From Deltaproteobacteria bacterium (lineage in GTDB: Bacteria > Myxococcota_A > Polyangia > Polyangiales > JADJMO01): a DNA stretch of 50,934 bases. Below the pieces are notes generated by a model. That model ran no database searches. It had not been told where the DNA came from and was given only the letters and a program-made list of their open reading frames with translations. The translations under genes were made by a program, and so were the position numbers. The stretch lies in NCBI GenBank assembly GCA_025363655.1, contig JANYDK010000039.1, forward strand, positions 1 through 50,934. The letters run 5' to 3'. Positions 5,761 to 29,132 of this stretch are shown piece after piece (position 1 is the stretch's first letter; each line of letters starts with the position of its first letter).

Positions 5761-6486
5761 TTACAAGGAATTGATCTTCGTGAGCGCGCCCGTGTACATG
5801 CCCTTGTAGAGAATCTCCATCGTGTCGAGATCGACGACGTAGGCAGTTTCGCGGGGCGTGCCGAGGATGGTCTTGATGGAGAGTGGCGCGTCGGGAGGAT
5901 CGATCGCCATCGGGAAGGCGATCTTGCGAGAGGTAATCCAGGCGTTGAGCTGCGTTTGGGTCGCCGCTCCGTTGGGATCGCTGGCGTTCTCGACCATCAC
6001 CTCGAAGAGCAAGGCCTTCGACTCGAAACCGGGGTATTTCGCGGCCAGATCACGGGCCGCGGCCTGGCAAGCCGTTCAGAAAAAACCTACTTCGTGGATC
6101 ATCGCCCAACGCTGTGGCGCCTTCGCGCGCACGTCGGAGAGTTGGAACGCGACGTAGTCGGCCTCGGTGGTGAGGCCCGTCGCGCCGAAGTGCAGGTAAC
6201 CCTGCGCGGCGAAATTCGGCATGATCGAGCCGACTTTGTTGCCGTAGGGGCCGTCGGGATAGACGTCGCGGCCGGGCGCAGCGGTGTCGGTGCTCGTCGC
6301 GGTGTCGTCGCCGGGCGAGGCGGTGTCGGAGCCTCCGCCAGGTGTCGTGTCGGCGACCGTGCCTCCGGTGTCGTCGCCTCCCTTCACGGGGTTCGAACCA
6401 TCGCCGCTGCTGGAGCAGGCGACGGCCGCCGCGAGGGCGAGGCCGGTGAGCCAAGGAATGGGGTGAAGGGGCGCGCGTCGCATCAT
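5761..6486 (-). CDS. Probable selenoprotein: thioredoxin-fold lipoprotein with in-frame UGA (Sec) in a UxxC motif
   Basis: Read through the UGA at 6076-6078, this frame gives 241 residues. It starts MMRRAPLHP and has a lipobox ending at Cys24 (AAAVAC). A linker rich in Asp, Thr and Gly follows (about residues 28-65), then a thioredoxin/AhpC-TSA-like domain. Where such domains carry CxxC, the sequence reads HEVGFF-UGA-TAC, giving Sec137-Thr-Ala-Cys140. It continues in the same frame with AARDLAAKYPGF and ALLFEVMVENA, and ends with PMAIDPPDAPL and TAYVVDLDTMEILYKGMYTG, all expected of this fold. A hairpin suitable as a bacterial SECIS follows the UGA (6040-6061). Treated as two genes, the second would need a TTG start inside the fold. 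An in-frame start at 6585 is possible but would bury the signal peptide. The likely role is a membrane-anchored thiol oxidoreductase or peroxidase; the substrate is unknown. Confidence 0.8.
6040..6061 (-). promoter_or_regulatory. Candidate bacterial SECIS element
   Basis: On the mRNA, the arms CGCGGCC (6061-6055) and GGCCGCG (6046-6040) form a perfect 7-bp stem closing an 8-nt loop, CGUGAUCU. Fourteen nt separate the UGA from the stem and 21 nt separate it from the loop. A G within the first two loop positions followed by U, and this spacing, agree with what is known of bacterial SECIS elements read by SelB. GC-rich DNA forms hairpins easily, so this is supporting evidence rather than proof. 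Confidence 0.6.
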
Positions 6487-6618: not shown

Positions 6619-7641
6619 TCAGGGCGTGAGCAGCACCTTGCCGATGGCCTTGCGATCGTGAATCCAGTGATGCGCCGCGGCTGCTTCGTCGAAGCTGAAG
6701 GTCTTGTCGACGCGCGGGCGAATTTTGCCGGCTTCGTAGAGCGCGATGAGCGCTTCGAACTGTGGCGTCAGCAAGTCGAGGCGGCTGAACATGTGGCCCA
6801 TGTTGCAGCCGCTGATCGTCTTGTTGTCGTCCATCAGCTTCATGGGGTTGTACTTGCGGATCTTCAGCACCTGCATCGCGGCGTGCCAGAGGCTGCGCTT
6901 CTTCCCCGACGAGGCGGCCGACAAGCCGAAGGCGACGATGCGACCCGTGGGCTGCAAGAGATCGTAGCCTTTGCCCCACGAGTCGCCGCCGACCGCGTCG
7001 AGGATGAGGTCGAGACCGTCCGCCTTCTCGGCGGCGAGGATCTCTTTCACGGCCGCCGCCCAATCGGCGCCAGAGTCGATGGGGTGGTGCACGCCCTTCT
7101 TCTTCAGGAAGTCGTGTTTTCCCGGGGAAGCGGTGCCGAAGATGATGCAGTTCTTCGTCTGCGCGAGCTCGATGGCGGCGAGCCCGACGCCGCCCGCGAC
7201 CGAGTGGATGAAGACGCGCGAGCCTTCGCGGAGCGTGCCGGTGAAGCACATCATGTTGTAGGCCGTGAGGTAGACGACGGGGAGCGCAGCGGCCTCCTCG
7301 AACGTCATTTTCTCGGGCATTTTGAAGACTTGATCGGCGTTGATGGCGAGCGTGTCGGTGTACCCGCCGAAGCGCGGCATGCCGAAGACCTTGTCGCCGA
7401 CGGCGAGCTTGGTGACGCCTTCGCCGACCTCGTCGACCACGCCCGAGACCTCGTAGCCGACGACGCAGGGGATTTTTGGAGCGTCTGGATAGAGACCGAC
7501 GCGCGCCATCAGATCGGCGAAGTTGATGCCCGCCGCCTTCACCCGAATGCGCACCTCACCAGCCCCGGCCGTCGGATCGGGCGCCTCGCGCACTTGGAGA
7601 ACTTCGGGGGGGCCGGCTTTGGTGATCCAGACTTGGCGCAT
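6619..7641 (-). CDS. Zinc-independent medium-chain oxidoreductase (quinone oxidoreductase / VAT1-like)
   Basis: MDR-superfamily NAD(P)H oxidoreductase of 340 residues. The N-terminal GroES-like fold has the quinone-oxidoreductase signature (AAGINFADLMARVGLYP, GYEVSGVVDEVG). The Rossmann domain has SVAGGVGLAAIELAQ. The LWHAAMQVLKIRKYNPMKLM and ISGCNMGHMF segments resemble the VAT-1 homologue branch. The structural zinc-site cysteines of alcohol dehydrogenases are absent, as expected for this branch. The substrate cannot be told. It is divergent from the small gene at 7695, and TAGCCT lies 7 nt before the ATG. Confidence 0.87.
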   Translation of the reverse strand: MRQVWITKAGPPEVLQVREAPDPTAGAGEVRIRVKAAGINFADLMARVGLYPDAPKIPCVVGYEVSGVVDEVGEGVTKLAVGDKVFGMPRFGGYTDTLAINADQVFKMPEKMTFEEAAALPVVYLTAYNMMCFTGTLREGSRVFIHSVAGGVGLAAIELAQTKNCIIFGTASPGKHDFLKKKGVHHPIDSGADWAAAVKEILAAEKADGLDLILDAVGGDSWGKGYDLLQPTGRIVAFGLSAASSGKKRSLWHAAMQVLKIRKYNPMKLMDDNKTISGCNMGHMFSRLDLLTPQFEALIALYEAGKIRPRVDKTFSFDEAAAAHHWIHDRKAIGKVLLTP

Positions 7642-8862: not shown

Positions 8863-10131
8863 ATGAAAACGACTTTCAACTTCAGCTTCAAATTTGTGCT
8901 GGGGCTGACTGTCGCCTGTAGTGCGGCGGCCGCGGCGTGCTCTTCGGCGAGCAACCCGGCGGCGACGACGGACGCTGGCGACGCACGTGAGGAAACTCCG
9001 GCGAGCTTGATCAACGCCGCCGACGTCCCCATCGACGGCTCCGACTCCGAGTCGGTGCGTCTCTTCAACGATGGTGACGGGCTCTTCGACCTCCCGTTGC
9101 GTGAGCCCGATGGGCTCGGTCCGCTCTTCATCCGCACCTCGTGCGGCGCATGTCACGATGGCGGCGCGCGCGGACCGGGTCTCGTGCAGAAGATGTCGAT
9201 CGTCGGGCCCGACGGCTTCACCGCGGCTGCCGATCAAACTCCGCTCACCTTCGGCCACACCATCCGCCTCGGGCTCGCCGCCGGTGCGACGACGCCGATC
9301 GTCGCACCGACCGGTGATTTCAAGCTCAAGGTGTCGACGCGCCTCGGGCCTCCCGTCCTCGGACGCGGCTACATGGAGGCCATCGCCGACGCCGAAATCG
9401 AGCGCGTCGAGGCCGAGCAGAAGCTCCGCACCGACGGCATCCACGGCCACATCAACCGCGTCGTCTATGGCTCGGAGCAGAACAGCGACACCTCGTTCTA
9501 CGCCTACAAAAAGGGCGATGCGAACCTCATCGGCCGCTTCGGGGTGAAGGCGCGCGTCGCCACGATCGACGACTTCGTCGCCGACGCGTACCAAGGCGAC
9601 ATGGGGCTGACGACGCCGATGCGTCCAGTCGAATTGGTCAATCCCGACGGTCTCGTCGACGACAAGAGGCCGGGCGTCGATCTCGGAATCGATCACGTCA
9701 ATCGCGTCGCCTTCTATCTCCGCCGCATCGCCATCCCGCGTCGCGTCGGGCTCGACGAGCAGGGCAAGAAGCTCTTCGCCTCGACCAACTGCGCCGTCTG
9801 CCACGCGCCGACGATGAAGACGCGCACCGACTACCCAATCGCCGCGATCGCCGGGATCGACGCCGCCGTCTACACCGACATGCTCTTGCACGACATGGGA
9901 CCCGACCTCGCCGACGGGATGACCGACGGCAGCGCCGGCTCGGGCGACTTCCGCACCACGCCGCTCATCGGTGTGCGCTTCTCCAAGACCTTCCTCCACG
10001 ACGGCCGCGTCACGTCGATCGCCGATGCGATCTTGGCGCACGGTGGCGAAGCAAAGGGTTCCGCCGACGCCTTCCGTGCCCTCTCGGTCGCCGATCAAGA
10101 GGCTCTCGTCGCTTTCGTCGAGGCACTTTAG
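8863..10131 (+). CDS. Di-haem c-type oxidoreductase lipoprotein (DUF1111 type)
   Basis: Exported protein of 422 residues with a lipoprotein-like signal (cluster of Ala and Cys near residues 20-28). Two CxxCH haem-c sites are visible: CGACH near residue 93 in FIRTSCGACHDGGARGPG and CAVCH near 309 in FASTNCAVCHAP. FNDGDGLFDLPLREPDGLGP and the C-terminal DFRTTPLIGVRFSKTFLHDGR are typical of the DUF1111 di-haem oxidoreductase family, related to cytochrome c peroxidases. The substrate is unknown. It is the first gene of a same-strand run: 6 bases separate its stop from the first ferritin-like lipoprotein, which suggests a shared extracytoplasmic redox or iron role. Confidence 0.88.
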   Translation: MKTTFNFSFKFVLGLTVACSAAAAACSSASNPAATTDAGDAREETPASLINAADVPIDGSDSESVRLFNDGDGLFDLPLREPDGLGPLFIRTSCGACHDGGARGPGLVQKMSIVGPDGFTAAADQTPLTFGHTIRLGLAAGATTPIVAPTGDFKLKVSTRLGPPVLGRGYMEAIADAEIERVEAEQKLRTDGIHGHINRVVYGSEQNSDTSFYAYKKGDANLIGRFGVKARVATIDDFVADAYQGDMGLTTPMRPVELVNPDGLVDDKRPGVDLGIDHVNRVAFYLRRIAIPRRVGLDEQGKKLFASTNCAVCHAPTMKTRTDYPIAAIAGIDAAVYTDMLLHDMGPDLADGMTDGSAGSGDFRTTPLIGVRFSKTFLHDGRVTSIADAILAHGGEAKGSADAFRALSVADQEALVAFVEAL

Positions 10132-10137
10132 GCATAT

Positions 10138-11358
10138 ATGAGCGTCCTTTCCTCGAGGTTGCGACGCGCGGTGCTCGTCGCCCTCGCGACACCACTGGCT
10201 GCTTGCTCGAGCAACTCGGAGGCGCCCCCTCTCGACACCGGCTCGTCGGCCGACAGCGCGCTCGGCGACGGCACCGTCTCCCCGCACGACGCCGATGTTT
10301 CCATCGACGCGAGCGACGCGCGCGACGTGCGCGACGCCGACACCGCCATCGACCCCGCGTGCCAGCCGGTCTTCGACTACGACCTCTCCGACGACTGCAC
10401 GTTCGTCTACACGTATCCCTGCGGATTTCCCGACGGCGTGCCGCTCGGGTTCCTCGACTCGCTCGACTGCGTCAACGTCTGTCCGCCGGCCGAGAGCGGG
10501 GTTCCCTTCCTCTGCAACACCGGGATGGTGGTGCCCGAGGCAGAGGTCGGCGTGACCGACGCGACCGATGCGACCGATGCGACCGATGCGACCGAGGGCA
10601 CCGACGCCCTCTCGTCCGACGTTTCGCCGAGCGATGCCGGCCTCATCGCGAGGCTCGCATGCACACATTGCTCGACCGGTCGTCGGCCTCCGGGGCTCGT
10701 GCGCGATCCAGGCGCGCGCCCGCGAAAAGCGACGCGCGCTGCCGGTGTGCTCTTCGCGCAGGTCGCCGAGCTCGAAGCTGCGTCGATCGTGGCGTTCGCC
10801 ACGCTCGGTCGCGAGCTTCGCGTGCACGGGGCGCCGCGAGGGCTCCTCGAGGAAGTCGCTCGTGCGAAACGCGACGAGGTCCGTCATGCGATGGCGATGG
10901 GACAGCTCGCGAGGCGCCTCGGGGGTGCCCCGCGACTTCCGCGCGTGCGCCGCCTCGCCCCGCGTGATCTCGCGACGCTCGCCGCCGACAACGTCGTCGA
11001 GGGTTGCGTTCGCGAAACTTACGGGGCGGCGGTAGCTCTCTTTCAAGCCGTGCGCGCACGCGAGCCACGAATGCGTGCCGTGCTTCGGCGCATTGCCGCC
11101 GACGAAACGCGTCACGCCGAAGTGTCGGCGCGCATCGCTGGATGGACCCGTCGGAGGCTCGGCGCCGATTCCCAGCGACGCATCGACGACAGCGAACGGG
11201 CTGCGATCGCCGCGTTGCGCGCGGAGATCGTCGCCGGAGAGACGCCGGCCGGGCTCCGTGAAGTGTCCGGTTTACCTTCACGAGCTGCCGCGCTCCGCCT
11301 CTTCGACGTGCTCTTCGCCGAGACCGCAGACGATGGCCGAGGTAAACTGCGGGCATGA
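10138..11358 (+). CDS. Lipoprotein with C-terminal ferritin-like domain (tandem copy 1)
   Basis: Encodes 406 residues. The lipobox ends at Cys23 (ATPLAACSS). An acidic linker follows, then a short Cys-containing region (ACQPVFDYDLSDDCTFVYTY). Next comes a run of TDA repeats near residues 140-155 and the motif CTHCSTGRRPPGL. The C-terminal ~170 residues form a predicted four-helix bundle with spaced carboxylate/His motifs: ELEAASIVAF, RDEVRHAM, EGCVRETYGA and DETRHAEVS. This is the E...ExxH...E...ExxH pattern of ferritin-like di-iron proteins. No classical exported ferritin has this architecture, so iron binding is inferred. The gene lies 6 bases after the di-haem gene and overlaps the next paralogue by 4 bases. 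Confidence 0.8.
   Translation: MSVLSSRLRRAVLVALATPLAACSSNSEAPPLDTGSSADSALGDGTVSPHDADVSIDASDARDVRDADTAIDPACQPVFDYDLSDDCTFVYTYPCGFPDGVPLGFLDSLDCVNVCPPAESGVPFLCNTGMVVPEAEVGVTDATDATDATDATEGTDALSSDVSPSDAGLIARLACTHCSTGRRPPGLVRDPGARPRKATRAAGVLFAQVAELEAASIVAFATLGRELRVHGAPRGLLEEVARAKRDEVRHAMAMGQLARRLGGAPRLPRVRRLAPRDLATLAADNVVEGCVRETYGAAVALFQAVRAREPRMRAVLRRIAADETRHAEVSARIAGWTRRRLGADSQRRIDDSERAAIAALRAEIVAGETPAGLREVSGLPSRAAALRLFDVLFAETADDGRGKLRA
10555..10600. repeat. 9-bp tandem repeat encoding Thr-Asp-Ala units
   Basis: About four to five copies of GCGACCGAT lie in frame, encoding TDATDATDAT in the linker of the ferritin-like lipoprotein. Changes in copy number would keep the frame and only alter linker length. 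Confidence 0.8.
11343..11348 (+). promoter_or_regulatory. -10-like TAAACT, 6 nt before ATG 11355
   Basis: TAAACT sits inside the 3' end of the preceding gene, 6 bases before the next start codon. It could give the second ferritin-like gene its own leaderless transcript, in addition to ATGA coupling. Confidence 0.45.
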
Positions 11359-12554
11359 GACGTCGGGCTTCGAGCCTGCTCGCCACGCGCCTGCGCCACG
11401 CCGTCATGTTGGCGATGGCCATTCCCGCCGCGGCTTGCGGCGGTAGCAACGCGACCCCCAATCCTCTCGAGCTAGGCACCGACGCCACGTTGGGTGACGT
11501 CGGCGACGGCAGCAGCGCAGGCGACACGACGAAGGATGGCGACGTGGCAGACGCCGTCGACTCGCACGCACGCGCCGACGCACCTCCGCTCTGGGACGCC
11601 GGCTGCGAGCCCGTGCGAAATCCGGCGATGGGTGACGAGTGCAACGACAGCTACGTCTTGCCGTGCGGGCTCCCGAAAGACTTTCCCGTCGGCGTCGTCG
11701 AACCGATCGGTTGCCTGATCATTTGCCCGCCGCCATGGGCTGGGGTGGTCTTCACCTGCGCGACCGCGCTCATCGATGGCGACGCCGGCGCTTCTCTCGA
11801 CACGGGTGACCCTGGCGACGCCGGCGACGCTGGTGAAGTGGGGGACGCGGTGGCGCTCCCCGAAGGAGGCGCGCTCCTCGTCTGCACGCACTGCGCGAGT
11901 GGCCGGAGGCCGAACGGGCTCGTCGAGAGCGCGCCGCCGGCGTCGTCGTCGGAGGTCGGGCTCCTCTTCGCGCGCGTGGCCGAGCTCGAAGCCGCATCCA
12001 TCGACGCCTTCGCGATCCTTCGACGCGATCTTCGTGCGCACGGTGCACCGACCTCGCTCGTCCGTCGCGCGGCGCGGGCACGACGCGACGAAGTCCGCCA
12101 CGCGCGTTCGATGGCCTCTTTGGCCCGTTTGCACGGCGGACGTCCGCGTCTTCCTCGTGTCTCGCGGCCCGGCTCACCACGAAACTCACGCCGAAGCTTG
12201 CTCGACGTGGCGCGCGAGAACCTCGTCGAAGGGTGCGTGCGCGAGACCTTCGGCGCGGCGGTGGCGACCTTCCAGGCCGAGCGCGCCGCGACGCCGCAGG
12301 TCCGTGCTCGCCTCCGCGCGATCGCGGCCGACGAGATCACCCACGCCGAGCTGTCACACGATCTCGCGCGCTGGCTTTGGCGACGGGTCGGAGCTCGCGC
12401 GCAGATCGAGCTCACCCGCCTCGCTACCGAGAGCGTCCGCGAGCTGCGCCGCGAAATCACGCGATCGCACGTCGCGCCATCCACGCTCGCGGCTTCTGGC
12501 CTGCCGACGAAGCACGAATCGCTGCGTATCCTCGACGCGCTCTTCCCGGCGTAA
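11355..12554 (+). CDS. Lipoprotein with C-terminal ferritin-like domain (tandem copy 2)
   Basis: Paralogue of the preceding gene (399 residues) with the same order: lipobox Cys28 (IPAAACGGS), acidic linker, Cys segment (CEPVRNPAMGDECNDSYVLPCG), CTHCASGRRPNGL, and a di-iron-type bundle. The bundle motifs are ELEAASIDAF, RDEVRHARSM, EGCVRETFGA and DEITHAELS. The spacing of the four carboxylate/His motifs matches copy 1, while signal and linker have diverged strongly. Selection therefore seems to act on the Cys and bundle regions. Its ATG overlaps the previous stop (ATGA). A recent tandem duplication is unlikely given the divergence. Confidence 0.8.
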   Translation: MRRRASSLLATRLRHAVMLAMAIPAAACGGSNATPNPLELGTDATLGDVGDGSSAGDTTKDGDVADAVDSHARADAPPLWDAGCEPVRNPAMGDECNDSYVLPCGLPKDFPVGVVEPIGCLIICPPPWAGVVFTCATALIDGDAGASLDTGDPGDAGDAGEVGDAVALPEGGALLVCTHCASGRRPNGLVESAPPASSSEVGLLFARVAELEAASIDAFAILRRDLRAHGAPTSLVRRAARARRDEVRHARSMASLARLHGGRPRLPRVSRPGSPRNSRRSLLDVARENLVEGCVRETFGAAVATFQAERAATPQVRARLRAIAADEITHAELSHDLARWLWRRVGARAQIELTRLATESVRELRREITRSHVAPSTLAASGLPTKHESLRILDALFPA

Positions 12555-28055: not shown

Positions 28056-29132
28056 ATGTCGCGTGTCCGCCCCCTGCTCTCTCGTCCTGGGGCGCGCTAT
28101 GCATGCCTCGGTGACGGGCTCTGTTGCACCGACGTGCACCTGCTCGGGCCGCTGACGCCGAGCGAGGTGAAGCGGCTGCACGTGCTCGCGCCCAAGCCCA
28201 AATCGAAGTCGAAGTCGAAGCGGGAGCCGAAGCTGGCGGATGCGCGCGTCGTCGTCCGCTCGGAGCTCCTCGACGCGCACGTCATCGCCACCACCGCCAA
28301 GGGCGAGTGCAGATTCCTCCTTCGCGACGCCGGTGGTTGCTACCTCCACGTGACCCACGGCGCGGCCGCGAAACCAGCGGGCTGTCGCCGTTTTCCCTAT
28401 CGCCTCGTGGCTACGCCGACCGGAGGCCGAGTCACCACCGAACATCGCTGCCCTTGTCGCACGATGGGCCCGCGCCCGCCGCTCTCGCTCGCCGACGCCG
28501 AGAACTCGCTGCGTGACGACGCGGGCCGCTTGCAAGCAGATGCGCGCGTGGGCGAGTCGGTGCGCGAACGACGCGGCAAGCGCATGACCTTCCGCGCCTA
28601 CACCACGCGCGAGGCGACGTGGATCGCGCGTCTCCTCGCCGGCGACGATCCAGGTGCCGTCCTCGACGCCGAGCCGCTCCCGCATTTGCAGGACGTCAGC
28701 TGGATCGACGTCGCCCACCAATTCCGCTCGAAAATCGACGGCAGCGCCTGCGGAGATGCGCTGGCGTGGTTCGGCGACGTTCTCCTCGGACTCGCCGACA
28801 CGCGCCATCGCTCCCGCGGACTGCGGGCCCGTCCATGGTCGCCGTCGTTCGATCGGGCCGAGAAGCGCGTCATCGATCCGGCGCGCGCCAGTGATCTCCT
28901 CGGCGACTTCGCGGCCGACGTCCTCTGGAGCCTCGAATGGGTTCAGGTCGGTAGCCTCGAAGTCGCGCGCAAAGAGCTGGTGACACGGATGCACGTCGCG
29001 CGGACGATCGTGAATGCGCTGGTGGCGGCCGGGACGCGGGAAGAGCGGGCGGCGGCCGAGGCGATTGCGATTGTCGAGTTGGCGGGGGCGTCGGGGTTGT
29101 GGGGGGCGGTGACGAAGGCGATGGAGGGTTAG
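28056..29132 (+). CDS. YkgJ-type cysteine-cluster protein
   Basis: Encodes 358 residues, starting MSRVRPLLSRPGARYACLGD. The cysteine pattern CLGDGLCCTDVHLLGPL, later FLLRDAGGCYLHVTHG, then GCRRFPYRLVA and HRCPCRTMG, is that of the YkgJ / zinc-or-iron-chelating domain family (first 140 residues). The remaining ~210 residues are helical and unassigned. A KSKSKSKR stretch lies near residue 50. Metal binding is expected from the family; the role is unknown. The start follows copy B of the phosphoesterase by 29 bases, so cotranscription is possible. Confidence 0.8.
   Translation: MSRVRPLLSRPGARYACLGDGLCCTDVHLLGPLTPSEVKRLHVLAPKPKSKSKSKREPKLADARVVVRSELLDAHVIATTAKGECRFLLRDAGGCYLHVTHGAAAKPAGCRRFPYRLVATPTGGRVTTEHRCPCRTMGPRPPLSLADAENSLRDDAGRLQADARVGESVRERRGKRMTFRAYTTREATWIARLLAGDDPGAVLDAEPLPHLQDVSWIDVAHQFRSKIDGSACGDALAWFGDVLLGLADTRHRSRGLRARPWSPSFDRAEKRVIDPARASDLLGDFAADVLWSLEWVQVGSLEVARKELVTRMHVARTIVNALVAAGTREERAAAEAIAIVELAGASGLWGAVTKAMEG

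Follow-up and report, generated by a model that had tools for sequence, protein, structure and literature searches.

Gene content of the locus

Strand reading and translation of the window (the whole 50,934-nucleotide stretch of DNA analysed here) placed a Sec-redoxin lipoprotein gene on the minus strand at positions 6486-5761. The initial annotation had located this interval and its single UGA (6076-6078) correctly and had given no strand. The plus strand of the interval was considered as the coding strand and rejected, as its translation revealed no gene. The gene starts with ATG (6486-6484), contains one in-frame TGA (6078-6076) and ends with a TGA stop codon (5763-5761). When the internal codon is read through, the product is 241 residues long with Sec as residue 137 (residue 138 in P0002, the version of the window protein with one additional leading codon), and homologues align on either side of the UGA.

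The N-terminal part of the product, encoded by 6486-6415, reads as a signal peptide with the lipobox AVAC, which comes after a hydrophobic stretch and includes the putatively lipidated Cys (codon 6417-6415), with Ser at +2. The lipobox claimed initially is thus present in the translated product, and by the same kind of motif reading most homologues carry a lipobox-like motif upstream. Judged by these motifs, the product is probably exported and lipid-anchored in the cell envelope. The following linker, described earlier as an Asp/Thr linker, is rich in Asp, Thr, Ser and Gly. The active site reads HEVGFF-U-TAC-QAAARDL, so that both the HEVGFF strand before the UGA and the Thr-Ala-Cys after it were recovered, and ~100 in-frame residues follow where 80+ had been expected. 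The UGA codon (6078-6076) supplies the U of U-T-A-C, and the resolving Cys at +3 is encoded by 6069-6067.

The DUF1456 gene reported downstream lies at 5743-5105 on the minus strand (PF07308, 167.9 bits), 17 nt from the end of the Sec-redoxin gene; the two are possibly co-transcribed. Searching the window for UGAs that might be read through gave five sites flanked by coding-like sequence; at candidates 3518 and 6619 the frame continues towards the next gene, and the homologue follow-up was limited to 6078-6076. Elsewhere in the window, a lipoprotein gene at 8863-10131 encodes a di-haem oxidoreductase (putative peroxidase, 155.5 bits). It is followed by two adjacent, similar-looking lipoprotein genes of ~400 residues (10138-11358 and 11355-12554), for which Pfam gave no match.

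UGA and Cys at the active-site column

The in-frame UGA raises a key question: is it decoded as Sec, or does it have a more trivial origin? Searching 38 related genomes in six frames yielded alignments spanning one in-frame UGA together with UGA-free paralogues. The fetched loci contained 18 UGA forms, the window counted; every UGA occupied the first position of UxxC on the correct strand, and the UGA-free homologues had Cys there. A phylum sample of 284 genomes added UGA forms from family f12, one UGA form from f25 and close Cys forms, UGA forms at ~30-45 bits in this sample being left out of the membership count. Overall, the column holds UGA in 25 homologues (window counted), distributed over families f1, f6, f12 and f25 of the phylum, and Cys in 7 further members of this clade as well as in 18 paralogues from the outgroup. 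Cys in place of the UGA, which had been named as a check, therefore does occur in relatives. The +3 Cys is present in all 50 aligned homologues, and the clade's site is read as a dithiol-type UxxC.

Sec and Cys forms of one orthologue were found within a single genus (g78, family f25): G175 carries AWWUGKC, whereas G145 and G246 carry AWWCGKC, with 74-81% identity around the site. In close pairs, dN was lower than dS downstream of the UGA as well as upstream (past the UGA, 0.055 vs 0.554 for L032/L035 and 0.017 vs 0.251 for L076/L077); in these pairs, purifying selection acts on the sequence beyond this codon. In the tree of the 50 homologues, a split with 100/100 support separates the 18 outgroup paralogues, all with Cys, from a clade in which 25 members have Sec and 7 have Cys. 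The Sec/Cys label changes about five times on this tree, at least four of the changes being forced by well-supported branches, with a direction that is not readable from the tree. The change from Sec to Cys has been described as rare and mostly confined to FdhA and SelD (PMC13188914).

The window protein shares only ~30-40% identity with any homologue found, and a search of genome contigs with P0002 as the query found no relative. Alignment A1 was dropped as a query for the pattern scan, being too diverse. An alignment of closer relatives identified nine loci in named Deltaproteobacteria/Myxococcales MAGs, at least five of which are genomes already counted; all nine carry the UGA and all nine form seven of seven stem pairs of the hairpin described below. 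A search of plasmids for the Sec redoxin gave no match.

A candidate bSECIS hairpin downstream of the UGA

The initial annotation had noted a 7-bp hairpin with a GU-containing loop 21 nt past the UGA. On the minus strand this candidate bSECIS element occupies 6061-6040, with 6061-6055 pairing with 6046-6040 around the 8-nt loop CGUGAUCU; the stem begins 14 nt and the loop 21 nt past the UGA codon. Published limits for bSECIS elements are a loop of 3-9 nt, a stem of 4-16 bp, a spacing of 16-37 nt and an MFE of -7.5 kcal/mol or lower, and the model also asks for a G within the first two loop positions (PMC13188914). The window hairpin lies within all of these limits (8 nt, 7 bp, a CGU loop start, 21 nt and -13.7 kcal/mol when folded alone), which answers the SECIS check suggested earlier. 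In comparison with synonymous-codon shuffles, it exceeds chance only weakly (p = 0.065), because the Ala and Arg codons of the region are GC-rich; single-gene p values were mostly near 0.05, and several genes, the window gene among them, fail.

The comparison across the family is more informative. In the alignment of the window's subtype (13 sequences), 96.7% of the cells pair and three of the seven pairs have changed on both sides. When the partner strand was slid by 1-3 columns, pairing fell to 25-43%, a control biased towards the hairpin because the structure was read from the same 13 sequences. The covariation score was reached in 0 of 500 shuffles, although related sequences can give such scores without structure. 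In the second subtype, the stem keeps its position and encloses a 5-nt loop, xGUxx. The Cys paralogues form 1-4 of the seven stem pairs, i.e., the hairpin is absent, and Sec sites exceed Cys sites against synonymous-codon shuffles (Mann-Whitney p 1e-4). At the level of the family, these alignments provide strong evidence for the predicted hairpin.

Selenocysteine machinery in the genome

Another important question is whether the genome encodes the means to insert Sec. Contig C66 carries a tRNA-Sec gene (62.5 bits, above the cut-off; anticodon tca according to ARAGORN), and it alone was counted, ten further places being below the cut-off. SelB (651 aa, with SelB winged-helix domains) and SelD (340 bits, with a UGA of its own) are also encoded. 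A Pfam profile search of the window's genome for SelA gave no match; SelA was found in all four other members of the genome's family and in the 11 other phylum-sample genomes holding strong UGA forms. This absence was at first counted against Sec and then rejected, as the selA N-terminus was located at a contig end, in the spot predicted by synteny. The gene order in G003 is aroKB - SDR - lipoprotein - selA; the window's genome has aroKB and the same lipoprotein at C95:25745-28342, and contig C95 ends at 28530. The final codons of C95, PALPAIGRLLARDDTRALVDRYGKDGVTEALRRAVADAREGSREL, match the beginning of the G003 SelA with 62% identity across 42 residues. Owing to this synteny and the N-terminal match, we consider selA present but truncated where the contig stops, visible only as ~49 codons in the last ~150 bases of C95 (L105). 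Thus, of the genes whose presence had been proposed as a check, selB, selC and selD are present and selA is represented by a fragment.

The window's assembly consists of 150 contigs, and in the relatives G001 and G002 a contig also ends at or near selA. The selA case is a warning that a sel gene missing from a draft genome may be a mere contig break. In the window's genome, an integrase-like gene (L001:1558-3012), identified by eye, directly adjoins the tRNA-Sec gene (L001:1501-1600), which suggests that an element may have integrated at selC.

Identity of the UGA codon

Taken together, the homologues, the sel machinery and the conservation of the hairpin across the family support the candidate selenoprotein proposed initially, and we regard the window gene as almost certainly a genuine bacterial selenoprotein; that it is one and has a general redox role, leaving its substrate aside, is very probable. 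One could suppose that the gene is an ordinary Cys redoxin gene in which TGC or TGT became TGA, either by a nonsense mutation in a pseudogene or by a sequencing error, and that no read-through takes place. TGA is indeed one base from either Cys codon, and the closest homologues are only moderately similar. However, the recurrence of UGA at the same column in the 25 homologues, from many independent assemblies, the constraint past the codon in close pairs, and a Sec machinery that is complete with selA as a contig-end fragment, together with the conserved hairpin, make this explanation highly improbable. Genome-wide recoding of UGA to Trp or Gly has a still smaller, nearly negligible probability: the Sec-redoxin gene and most of its homologues terminate in TGA, as does the neighbouring gene at 6619, and the column in UGA-free relatives is Cys, never Trp or Gly.

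Fold of the Sec redoxin and comparison with known systems

The window protein reached 25.5 bits with the AhpC-TSA profile (PF00578), 0.5 bit short of the cut-off of 26, and 11 of 18 members matched the profile at E 0.01 or better (best 1.6e-6). NCBIfam selenoprotein models gave no match to the 18 members at E 0.01. The AlphaFold model contains a confident domain at residues 80-242, mostly with pLDDT > 90. In a fold comparison of this model, ResA, BCP-type peroxiredoxins and deiodinase 2 tie at Z 15-16, and ResA was the sole match in a sequence search of solved structures (E 0.00022).

The clade departs from the usual thioredoxin pattern at the cis-proline position, which was assigned by sequence alignment, without a solved structure. 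Pro occupies this column in all 18 outgroup Cys paralogues and in 0 of the 32 members of the Sec-using clade; the latter have R or K before the position (32/32) and mostly E or D at it (27/32). In the window, the pair is Arg-Glu, encoded by 5853-5848 (R213-E214 of P0002). At -3 from the catalytic position, the window protein has Gly, and among the 25 Sec members Thr occurs in none and Ser in one.

Among the closest known systems are the Prx-like thiol:disulfide oxidoreductase selenoproteins (PF00578, UxxC; PMC13188914 Table 1; Prx-like 1, PMC2398784), which share the AhpC-TSA-type thioredoxin fold, the UxxC site, a UGA with a downstream bSECIS and Cys homologues. In a comparison based on descriptions, the window clade differs in its lipoprotein signal, its Asp/Thr/Ser linker, R/K-E/D in place of cis-Pro and its occurrence in Myxococcota. 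ResA and CcmG resemble the clade as membrane-anchored proteins outside the cytoplasm and as the best sequence match among solved structures (Z ~15), but the clade has Sec for the first Cys, no cis-proline and a lipobox instead of a transmembrane anchor, and none of the ten scanned window neighbours of the Sec redoxin is a cytochrome-maturation gene. The peroxiredoxins BCP, AhpE and AhpC (Z 14-16) have a basic residue beside the cis-Pro position as well, whereas the clade lacks Thr/Ser at -3, has its resolving Cys at +3 and would be exported. The mouse iodothyronine deiodinase (Dio2 core, 9h48), which with the bacterial deiodinase-like selenoproteins represents another thioredoxin-fold selenoenzyme, was the top fold match (Z 15.8, 13% identity); since it is tied with ResA and BCP, this score is no evidence of membership, and no Pfam deiodinase match was found in the 18 members.

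A CGxxC lipoprotein near the Sec genes

Within 1.5 kb of many redoxin genes lies a gene for an undescribed lipoprotein of ~300 residues with a CGxxC motif. With flanks of this length, on which the counts depend, it was found beside 11 of the 25 Sec genes (families f1, f6 and f12), 2 of the 7 Cys genes in the clade and 2 of the 18 Cys genes in the outgroup. Both Cys residues of the motif are invariant in 14 sequences. Examples are L096:6686-7675 (G000:C25), L093:4379-5317 and L094:12311-13240. The window itself contains no such gene, and the window's genome has one beside the Sec paralogue on C25. Pfam gave no match to the lipoprotein, and its model is confident and mostly beta without a clear fold match. 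In G001 (C17), a peroxiredoxin gene (L093:11431-11925; AhpC-TSA, 119 bits) begins at the extreme end of a Sec redoxin gene, which may point to a connection with peroxides. Multicopper oxidase genes lie near two Sec redoxin genes of different genomes (L094:9470-11035 and L096:8434-9999).

Proposed mechanism and possible roles

From the UGA at the catalytic Cys column, the machinery, the conserved hairpin and the predicted fold, all of which are observed, we infer the following route. The standard SelB pathway, directed by the hairpin (6061-6040), would insert Sec at the UGA (6078-6076), and the product would be exported and lipidated, presenting a thioredoxin-fold domain intermediate between ResA/TlpA-type oxidoreductases and peroxiredoxins. 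The Sec selenolate would attack an oxidised substrate, the oxidised Sec would be resolved by the Cys at +3 as an Se-S bond, and a thiol donor of the envelope would reduce this form again.

The product is thus probably an exported reductase that depends on a selenol, with peroxides as possible substrates. Which substrate would be reduced is a separate matter, for which the initial annotation had inferred a reductase or peroxidase. The exchange of cis-proline for Arg/Lys-Glu/Asp in the clade favours small oxidised substrates, e.g., peroxides, over protein disulfides, and in peroxiredoxins an Arg at the cis-Pro position activates the nucleophile (PMC2757866). A peroxidase role is weakened by the missing Thr at -3, and from sequence features a peroxide-type role may be put forward tentatively, somewhat short of an even chance. 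Alternatively, the protein could be a true selenoprotein acting as a thiol:disulfide reductase of the ResA/TlpA/CcmG kind on envelope proteins such as apocytochromes c. The correspondence of UxxC to the CxxC of that group, the absence of the peroxiredoxin Thr, the sole structural sequence match to ResA and fold scores of ResA chains equal to those of peroxiredoxins speak for it. Against it stand the lack of cytochrome-maturation genes among the ten neighbours and the loss, throughout the clade, of a cis-proline that is common to thioredoxins and cytochrome maturation proteins (PMC2757866) and is reported essential in DsbA, where its replacement abolishes turnover (PMC13269488). We consider this role less likely than not and rank it close behind the peroxide-type one. 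It is also conceivable, and in our estimation unlikely, that the clade redoxin and the adjacent CGxxC lipoprotein form an exported redox pair, in which the redoxin would reduce or oxidise the Cys pair of its partner and the partner of the window copy would be encoded elsewhere, e.g., on C25. The recurrence of the lipoprotein near Sec genes in several families and its invariant Cys residues suit such a pair, but the window has no copy, the partner has no recognised fold or family, its Cys residues may form a structural disulfide, and the neighbour counts hang on the chosen flanks.

Novelty and significance

UxxC redoxin selenoproteins, both Prx-like and thiol:disulfide types, are already known, so that the initial description of such proteins as little described holds for the Myxococcota type only: our search of the open-access literature yielded no account of selenoproteins of the window type from Myxococcota. 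For Anaeromyxobacter dehalogenans, 11 selenoproteins are listed (PMC1794560), and the phylum Myxococcota goes unmentioned in a 2026 review of prokaryotic selenoproteins. The new parts are the exported, expanded clade lacking cis-Pro and its frequent CGxxC neighbour; no curated family model matched the clade or the partner lipoprotein. That these form a Myxococcota-specific, two-part exported selenium redox system, composed of envelope-anchored selenoenzymes without cis-Pro and a dedicated CGxxC lipoprotein, is a speculative reading to which we give a low probability.

Ordinary annotation of the window gene would produce a truncated lipoprotein and a stray fragment. The family represents repeated use of Sec in exported proteins of the phylum, and it offers close Sec/Cys orthologue pairs within one genus and at least four well-supported Sec/Cys changes in a field that calls such a change rare. 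The clade is also a natural test of a thioredoxin-fold enzyme that works without cis-proline when the nucleophile is selenium.
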